From: Thauera aromatica K172
Lineage (GTDB): Bacteria > Pseudomonadota > Gammaproteobacteria > Burkholderiales > Rhodocyclaceae
Reading direction: 5' to 3'
DNA: 64,000 nt
NCBI RefSeq assembly: GCF_003030465.1
Contig: NZ_CP028339.1
Location: forward strand, 3,232,041-3,296,040
Position numbers and translations under genes: made by a program. The notes beneath the pieces were generated by a model that saw only the letters and a program-made list of their open reading frames with translations, was not told where the DNA came from and made no database searches. Below are positions 3,054 to 3,259 of the stretch, piece after piece (within the stretch, counting starts at the first letter, position 1; each line of letters starts with the position of its first letter).

Positions 3054-3206
3054 GTGGAGCAGCCAAAGGCACCGGGGCCGGATTTGCACATCAAGTTTGA
3101 GCTGAGCTTTCGACGGCACCGAAAACCTTTACTGCCTTGGTTGGTCATCGGCATCGCGTTGATCGGAGTGATTGAAAGACTGGTGCGGATGTGGATTGAA
3201 ACCTAG
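3054..3206 (+). CDS. Small single-pass membrane peptide (50 aa) between cas3 and cas5c, possible CreT-type toxin
   Basis: GTG start with a GGGG-containing Shine-Dalgarno (3043-3046) about 7 nt upstream. The peptide begins MEQPKAPGPDLHIKFELSFR, a basic patch follows (RRHRK), then one hydrophobic helix (PLLPWLVIGIALIGVIERLV, about residues 26-44), and it ends VRMWIET. I know no family for it. Size and shape resemble small hydrophobic toxins of toxin-antitoxin systems, but that is an analogy only. Its final codons (TGG ATT GAA ACC TAG) lie within the repeat remnant at 3191-3202, so peptide and guide RNA would share one transcript. Its promoter is the predicted target of that guide. Alternatives: a leader peptide for the cas operon, or an ORF kept open by chance. 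Confidence 0.5.
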   Translation: MEQPKAPGPDLHIKFELSFRRHRKPLLPWLVIGIALIGVIERLVRMWIET

Positions 3207-3236
3207 GTCGTTCAATGTGAGTACGTGGGAAGAAGT
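3191..3236 (+). ncRNA. crRNA-like RNA (CreR/CreA-type guide): repeat 3' handle plus 34-nt spacer-like sequence
   Basis: 3191-3202 is GTGGATTGAAAC, identical to the last 12 nt of the CRISPR repeats at 8855-11035 and containing the 5' handle that Cas5c leaves on type I-C crRNAs. The next 34 nt (3203-3236) have the length of an array spacer (34-39 nt here) and end exactly where a perfect hairpin starts at 3237. The spacer-like part begins CTAGGTCGTTCAATGTGAGT and matches 16 of 20 positions to a PAM-flanked site at 2992-3011. Published CreR RNAs repress cas operons and CreA antitoxin RNAs repress a toxin promoter; both use a degenerate repeat with a partially matching spacer. Which class this is cannot be decided here. 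The 5' stem of the repeat is missing, so how the handle end would be produced is open. Confidence 0.75.
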
Positions 3237-3259
3237 CCGCCCCTCATCGTGAGGGGCGG
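3237..3259 (+). terminator. Perfect 10-bp hairpin after the crRNA-like RNA
   Basis: CCGCCCCTCA (3237-3246), loop TCG, TGAGGGGCGG (3250-3259). It sits directly after the 34-nt spacer-like stretch and 11 nt before the strong cas5c Shine-Dalgarno. There is no T-run, so it may be a weak terminator, an RNA 3'-end stabiliser or a translation attenuator for cas5c. Confidence 0.5.

Follow-up and report, generated by a model that had tools for sequence, protein, structure and literature searches.

The cas3–cas5c interval of the type I-C operon

The window, that is, the whole stretch of 64,000 nucleotides analyzed here from Thauera aromatica K172, contains a complete type I-C CRISPR-Cas system, the subtype being assigned from Cas5c, Cas8c and Cas7 proteins of I-C together with an array. 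The genes lie on the forward strand in the order cas3, encoding an HD nuclease and helicase (679–2967; NCBIfam cas3_core, 7.9e-32, and cas3_HD, 7.9e-30), cas5c (3282–3956; TIGR01876, 1.5e-55), cas8c (3953–5770; TIGR01863, 5.9e-177), cas7 (csd2; 5770–6663; TIGR02589, 1.2e-124), cas4 (6683–7315; TIGR00372, 1.4e-40), cas1c (7319–8359; TIGR03640, 6.5e-155) and cas2 (8369–8659; TIGR01573, 3.5e-17). The array (8855–11035, forward strand) comprises 33 identical 32-nt repeats with spacers of 33–39 nt, rather than the 34–39 nt given in the first-pass annotation. At its far end, a decayed last repeat (GTCGCGCGGATTAAAAC) was observed at about 11070–11098, and a transposase-like ORF with a zinc ribbon (by eye) is located upstream of cas3 (2–586, reverse strand), running off the window start. 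The cas3 stop codon ends at 2967 and cas5c starts at 3282, leaving a gap of 314 bp.

Within this gap, the last 12 nt of the array repeat, GTGGATTGAAAC, occur alone at 3191–3202 (forward strand), as the first-pass annotation had reported, and form the 5′ handle of a first pseudo-repeat at a place before cas5 comparable to that in related loci. The window has 34 exact copies of the motif, all but this one belonging to the array (33), and the whole 3.7-Mb genome has the same 34 copies, with 3191–3202 as the only exact ectopic one. The probability of such a match in the window had been put at under 1 percent in the first-pass annotation; shuffles within the window gave a mean of 0.00 occurrences. 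As a control, the motif was also read backwards, and since this reversed pattern occurred once in the genome, a lone 12-nt match per genome is by itself unsurprising.

The handle is followed by a spacer-like guide segment (3203–3234, forward strand), which is 32 nt long if the second pseudo-repeat begins at the GTC at 3235, and 34 nt long (3203–3236) up to the hairpin, the latter corresponding to the insert originally described as ending at a perfect 10-bp hairpin. This hairpin, CCGCCCCTCA-TCG-TGAGGGGCGG (3237–3259, forward strand), is the likely 3′ end of the guide. A function as an intrinsic terminator was rejected, as a T-tract is absent and no terminator-like site was called. By-eye alignment to the array repeat places the hairpin within a decayed second repeat of the form GTC-stem-TTGAGC (pseudo-repeat 2; 3235–3268, forward strand), and loci L039 and L062 carry a nearly intact second repeat at the same place (by eye). 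The 3′ half of the element resembles a repeat stem that has been retained, and the element as a whole looks like a decayed two-repeat mini-CRISPR composed of the handle half of repeat 1 and the hairpin half of repeat 2. No clear stem was found directly before the handle (shuffle p 0.80; fold z −0.51), which was counted against a guide function; a bulged fold exists at this position and was discarded as a recovered stem, being no better than shuffles. Across a set of 35 loci (described below), a hairpin beyond dinucleotide shuffles was present 3′ of the guide in 25, and a stem beyond shuffles before the handle in 8.

The first-pass annotation had further proposed that the insert matches a PAM-flanked local target. 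We located this protospacer directly after cas3 on the reverse strand (2978–3011), where a TTC PAM (3012–3014, reverse strand) is followed by CTAGGAAGTTCAATGT, matching the guide CTAGGTCGTTCAATGT at 14 of 16 positions. Guide–target pairs were scored over positions 1–17 minus 6 and 12, i.e., 15 positions, and with 13/15 this site was the best of the 1803 TTC sites of the window, the next best reaching 9/15. When 300 shuffled guides were scored, the best value anywhere in the 64 kb was 13 once and otherwise 8–12. Pairing comprises positions 1–5 and 8–16, with few pairs beyond position 16; position 7 is mismatched in addition to position 6, which counts against the guide interpretation. With one mismatch allowed, the PAM-plus-seed pattern matched only this target in the genome, while the reversed pattern found two sites, and for this reason we place weight on the position of the target and on the comparison across loci. 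None of the 32 array spacers scored above 9 against 2901–3190. A candidate target on the forward strand (TTC at 3005–3007 followed by CTAGG, a 5-nt seed) was dropped in favor of the reverse-strand site, with which it has the palindrome CCTAGG in common and which matches at 14/16.

A weight-matrix scan placed the best sigma-70-type promoter of the searched stretch (TTGAAC-17-TAGGCT; 2999–3027, forward strand) just after cas3, with the target overlying the −35 element and the spacer of this predicted promoter. A stricter consensus tool called no promoter within 2900–3300, and this was also counted against the guide interpretation. Between the predicted promoter and cas5c, no terminator was called.

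The target precedes a small conserved ORF (3054–3206, forward strand) that runs from a GTG start with a modest ribosome site to a TAG stop. It encodes a peptide of 50 amino acids, MEQPKAPGPDLHIKFELSFRRHRKPLLPWLVIGIALIGVIERLVRMWIET, with one hydrophobic membrane-like stretch, annotated as a putative toxin or cargo. The ORF, which the first-pass annotation of this element does not mention, reads through the handle, and the handle supplies its last codons (WIET-stop).

Guide–target co-variation across cas5-type loci

Related loci were collected from the best 80 of at least 587 named relatives and by searching genomes at the level of the order (300), the class (369) and the family (199), of which 28, 37 and 43, respectively, had a match; loci were taken from the best matches. 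The final set consisted of 153 cas5-type loci with upstream sequence, including the window, among which no near-identical upstream pairs were left; as it extends to distant cas5 proteins (to about 28% identity), its members may not all be type I-C. Loci L089 and L148 (own genome), L117 and L118 (second cas5 pieces), L116 (no tblastn match) and L168–L170 were left out. Two duplicates, L091 (the same locus as L014) and L122 (the same as L062), were removed for the 153-locus co-variation test and for the 35-locus ORF and hairpin tests; L091 was counted in an earlier 25-locus cut, and both were counted in a 31-locus promoter test. The 35-locus set was made up of the 29 distinct loci of the promoter test plus L149, L150, L151, L153, L154 and L155, whose target positions were entered by hand, that of L149 (score 10) roughly.

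A handle-like motif was present before cas5 in 45 of the 153 loci and absent in 108, the latter being counted against the guide interpretation. In 34 of the 45 handle-bearing loci, the guide matched a PAM-flanked site in its own upstream region at 11/15 or more (TTC in 32, TTT in 2). This contrasted with the controls, where the same threshold was reached by 6 of 900 shuffled guides and in 20 of 1980 comparisons of guides with other loci, some of which are related. As the 34 matching guides fall into 28 clusters, the co-variation has been repeated rather than inherited as one match. In the earlier, overlapping cut, 19 of 25 loci scored at least 10, compared to 13/600 and 6/500 in the controls; L071, which had been let into this cut with three handle mismatches, failed, while the guide–target pair of Azotobacter vinelandii CA (L032) scored 12/15. 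The comparison of handle, insert and seed–target pairing in related I-C loci, named in the first-pass annotation as a check of its proposal, was therefore passed.

Type I Cascade habitually leaves every sixth position unpaired. Across the 34 pairs, matches numbered 32–34 at each of positions 1–5, 10 at position 6, 30–33 at positions 7–11, 11 at position 12 and 22–27 at positions 13–17, so that mismatches piled up at positions 6 and 12 as would be expected of Cascade. Positions 6 and 12 were unscored in this test, and the dip persisted with all 18 positions scored (4 and 6 of 17, respectively). When no PAM was demanded, the best site was preceded by TTC in 17 and by TTT in 2 of the 19 loci reaching a score of 12, and TTC/TTT are the I-C PAMs given for Neisseria lactamica in PMC10865793.

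No match of at least 11 was obtained in 11 of the 45 handle-bearing loci, which again counted against the guide interpretation. Among them is L149, the nearest relative of the window (78 percent identical over the stretch searched). Here, the changed guide, TTAGTTAGTTC, has its best site at TTT followed by TTAGTGAGTTC, which reaches 10/15 with positions 1–5 and 7–11 matching and none of 13–17. The target may have moved or the pair may be decaying, and the locus was counted as not passing.

In 23 of 31 loci, or 21 of 29 once the duplicates L091 and L122 are set aside, the best predicted promoter was found to overlap or abut the target, compared to 7.5 of the 31 expected by random placement. Gap lengths, which are approximate where an ORF of more than 450 nt overlaps (e.g., L030, L044 and L046), also followed the handle: gaps with a sense handle were mostly long (20/24 of at least 255 bp), while those without one were mostly short (59/76 of at most 113 bp). 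Of the longer gaps without a sense handle, those of L094–L097 and L106 contain antisense guides matching TTC sites at 11–14/15, and those of L017, L024, L028, L066 and others yielded no guide. A wider scan of longer gaps added guide–target pairs in L050 (13/15), L054 (15/15) and L063 (14/15). Isolated handles elsewhere in 81 longer loci gave 27 sites, of which 5, in 4 loci, scored at least 11; with full-length guides, 5 of 26 sites did so, compared to 8/520 shuffled guides at this threshold and 0/520 at 13 or more. Given this background, a score of 11 in L084, 4.6 kb after cas5, is probably due to chance. In L063, an identical handle and guide were observed twice (2768 and 2934) near one target, with a stretch containing N between the copies.

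A chance repeat fragment, or a functionless remnant of a decayed array, could be put forward for the lone handle, given that a 12-mer can occur about once per 3.7 Mb by chance, as the reversed motif does. However, in many loci the handle stands before cas5 at a comparable position and in a comparable orientation, the guides co-vary with their targets far above the controls, and we regard such an origin as highly improbable.

Cargo genes between the target and cas5

The locus L149 encodes a homologue of the 50-aa peptide with the same length and the same ending (dN 0.185, dS 0.79, dN/dS about 0.23), and relatives sharing a FEL-LRIR-RR-LPW pattern followed by a hydrophobic stretch were found in L014, L090, L030, L033, L039 and L042 (21–34 percent identity to the peptide of the window). 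When 399 genomes of the order were searched with a profile built from seven members, 3 gave a match, all in cas3–cas5-type gaps and all corresponding to profile members or to the same locus as a member; no relative was seen outside such gaps in these genomes. At curated cut-offs, no Pfam or NCBIfam family was assigned to the peptide of the window, which had no Pfam match at E ≤ 1, and the L033 homologue matched only DUF3094 in Pfam (0.075). An alternative is that the small ORF is untranslated, with the RNA itself being toxic or conservation acting on the RNA alone. The GTG start and modest ribosome site would be compatible with this, as would the RNA toxins (CreT) described in such modules in PMC8501985, but the same-length homologue with its dN and dS values and a protein pattern common to seven loci argue against it, making it rather improbable.

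In the 35-locus set, an ORF of 25–75 amino acids with a membrane-like stretch was present between target and cas5 in 21 loci, compared to 3.5 expected from shuffles, and in none on the reverse strand. The 14 negative loci were counted against the proposed regulatory loop. Among them, the peptide of L096 overlaps cas5 (by eye), and L127 and L128 combine a sense guide with a membrane-like peptide on the opposite strand, which reads away from cas5 and has the target near its start; L019 and L095 have no membrane-like ORF on either strand. A second peptide pattern (RELRLLL-LP-RFW plus a hydrophobic stretch, by eye) was recognized in L094, L096, L097, L106, L136, L127 and L128. The loci L094, L095, L096, L097, L106 and L136, belonging to a more distant cas5c group, were observed to carry the element in antisense, with guides matching TTC sites at 11–14/15, and all of these six except L095 carry a peptide of the second kind. 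A kinship between the peptides of the window and of L097 was rejected, as only 12 hydrophobic residues align.

Other cargoes occupy the same slot. HicA toxin genes (Pfam PF07927) were identified in the I-C cas3–cas5 gaps of L063 (3065–3274; 3.6e-15), L050 (3947–4183; 1.9e-14) and L070 (2766–2987; 3.3e-17), and in L063 and L050 the mini-CRISPR guide also matches a site upstream of hicA (shuffled control 0/520 at 13 or more). Instead of a membrane peptide, L022, L045, L150, L151 and L154 show, by eye, a stem-loop, a Shine-Dalgarno sequence and an AGA/AGG mini-ORF within about 460 bp upstream of cas5, ATGGCTAGAACCCAT being common to L150, L151 and L154. These mini-ORFs resemble CreT RNA toxins, which sequester rare tRNAs as outlined in PMC8501985. 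As separate observations, the gap of L098 holds an apparent VapB/VapC-type antitoxin and PIN toxin pair 740 bp before cas5 (by eye), where a guide was not detected, and those of L017 and L024 are filled by a GIY-YIG nuclease-like open frame about 340 bp before cas5 (by eye), where no guide was found.

These data bear on what the guide regulates. Firstly, it might act purely as a CreR that tunes only the expression of cas5–cas2, with the small ORF being a leader peptide or a harmless passenger. The lack of any called terminator from the promoter to cas5 agrees with this, and so do L019, where a 13/15 guide–target pair exists with no membrane-like ORF on either strand, and the CreR guides described for types I-B, I-E and V-A in PMC13131331. 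This explanation nevertheless appears unlikely in view of the excess of membrane-like peptides on one strand (21/35 vs. 3.5 and none), the dN/dS of about 0.23 between the window and L149, the presence of HicA and CreT-like mini-ORFs in the slot elsewhere, and the peptides of L127 and L128, which, reading away from cas5 with the target near their start, serve no cas gene.

Secondly, the element might be only a toxin–antitoxin module similar to CreTA or CrePA, in which the guide represses the peptide and cas5–cas2, transcribed from the cas3 promoter, are hardly affected. The diversity of the cargoes (membrane peptides, HicA and mini-ORFs) is consistent with this, as is the arrangement of guide and cargo on opposite strands (antisense guide and sense cargo in L094, L096, L097 and L106; the reverse in L127 and L128), an orientation described for the Acinetobacter I-F creTA in PMC10097628. 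Conversely, the distance from the predicted promoter of the window to cas5 is about 280 nt, and as no terminator was called between the two, read-through into cas5 is expected. We consider this explanation possible, albeit doubtful.

It is moderately probable that the 50-aa peptide is a toxin, one that would be silenced only as long as CRISPR functions; it is called a putative toxin mainly because a known toxin fills the same slot in some loci. By a slight preference, we view the I-C cas3–cas5 gap as a widespread slot for toxins, with a Cascade guide RNA that would serve as the antitoxin to interchangeable cargoes on either strand, namely HicA, CreT-like mini-ORFs and putative single-pass membrane peptides that seem to form at least two distinct families. 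Where the guide controls a promoter before cas5, a single switch would then serve autoregulation, addiction and the response to anti-CRISPRs.

Proposed regulatory loop and relation to known systems

The CreR/CreA-like guide RNA put forward in the first-pass annotation was largely supported by the co-variation, and its layout could be refined to a decayed two-repeat mini-CRISPR with a predicted promoter as target and a peptide ORF. The sequences themselves show the handle, the guide, its match to a PAM-flanked site, the co-variation among loci and the conservation of the ORF, and from these features we infer RNA production, Cascade loading and, strongly, repression; it is very probable that a Cascade guide represses the predicted promoter just after cas3 in its own operon. 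The interval would encode a crRNA-like regulatory guide, consisting of the 5′ handle, 32–34 nt of guide and the hairpin half of a second repeat, to be loaded into the type I-C Cascade (Cas5c-Cas8c-Cas7). By partial pairing (positions 1–5 and 8–16, TTC PAM), Cascade would be steered to 2978–3011 and bind there without cutting by Cas3, resulting in repression. That the site would be bound and not degraded is expected from the pairing of 14 of the first 16 positions with few beyond, judging from work on CreA and CreR. In Neisseria, I-C Cascade without Cas3 represses promoters to which it binds, as reported in PMC10865793.

The 50-aa peptide, putatively a single-pass membrane peptide, would be expressed from this promoter, as would probably the guide and cas5-8-7-4-1-2; since no terminator was called before cas5, peptide, guide and cas5–cas2 probably share the promoter. 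Loss or titration of Cascade, or its blocking by an anti-CRISPR, would release the feedback loop and open the promoter. With the peptide as a toxin, this would amount to CreA/CrePA-like addiction or an anti-anti-CRISPR function, CreR-like cas autoregulation being a coupled effect. Where guide and cargo are encoded on opposite strands, the loop would have a simpler form that comes nearer to an ordinary toxin–antitoxin module. Because the target overlies the predicted promoter and a small putative membrane ORF lies between target and guide, a CreA-like (toxin-repressing) role suits the window at least as well as a CreR-like (cas-repressing) one.

Hok and TisB are short single-helix membrane peptides of type I toxin–antitoxin systems that are silenced by RNA-based control. 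The window would likewise place a short membrane peptide under RNA-based silencing, the control here being transcriptional via Cascade. Shmakov and co-workers reportedly surveyed in 2023 regulatory mini-arrays with standalone repeats, mostly of type I and including toxin–antitoxin cargo, that are partly complementary to cas or cargo promoters, a complementarity that the present element would share.

The closest layout is that of the Acinetobacter I-F creTA, described in PMC10097628 as a cas3–csy1 gap of ~400 bp with two pseudo-repeats and a PAM-flanked target. As in that module, the element of the window sits between cas3 and the next cas gene, in a stretch that most related operons lack, and has two decayed repeats and a spacer-like segment with a partial match to a PAM-flanked site, which is located upstream of a small coding element. 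In contrast, the window is type I-C with a TTC PAM, its guide is on the same strand as the cargo and downstream of it, and a 50-aa putative membrane peptide replaces the 33-bp mini-ORF of an RNA toxin as cargo. The rare-codon mini-ORF of an RNA toxin that defines CreTA was not found in the window, where the 50-aa ORF shows a dN/dS of about 0.23. The crRNA features of CreTA and CrePA, a 5′ handle and a 3′ hairpin from decayed repeats, are present, the window lacking the stem of the first repeat. Like CrePA, as summarized in PMC12737573, the window would combine a guide RNA with a protein cargo under a repressed promoter; unlike the CreP proteins, which according to that review typically have a KilA-N domain and act on FtsZ, its peptide has no Pfam or NCBIfam match and, in Pfam at E ≤ 1, no KilA-N domain.

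Similar to CreR of types I-B, I-E and V-A, whose crRNA-like guides are described in PMC13131331 and PMC12737573 as partly matching the promoter of the cas operon, the window carries a repeat-derived handle outside the array and near cas genes, followed by a guide with a partial match to a PAM-flanked site in a cas promoter, here a predicted one. Unlike in CreR, the subtype is I-C, and the promoter lies inside the operon, after cas3, where a small putative membrane protein is also encoded downstream of it; in the summary of PMC12737573, CreR generally comes without a coupled toxin. The term "I-C" was absent from PMC8501985, PMC9458426 and PMC10097628 in a word search, and no description of such an element in type I-C was found among the literature matches listed, most of which are represented by a title or the start of an abstract. 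I-C cases may already be listed in the CreR paper or in the 2023 survey of standalone repeats.

A 2025 review (PMC12737573) asks whether there are CRISPR-repressed protein toxins with other cellular targets in other CRISPR types. For type I-C, which is in use for genome engineering, the present analysis provides about three dozen candidates that can be tested; in many of them, the candidate toxin is a small membrane-like peptide that belongs to no known family. If the proposed loop is true, inactivation of Cascade by an anti-CRISPR or by deletion would release the cas genes together with a growth-arresting peptide, and this would bear on the maintenance of type I-C systems, on I-C repression tools that lack Cas3 and on the behavior of cas5, cas7 and cas8 deletions.
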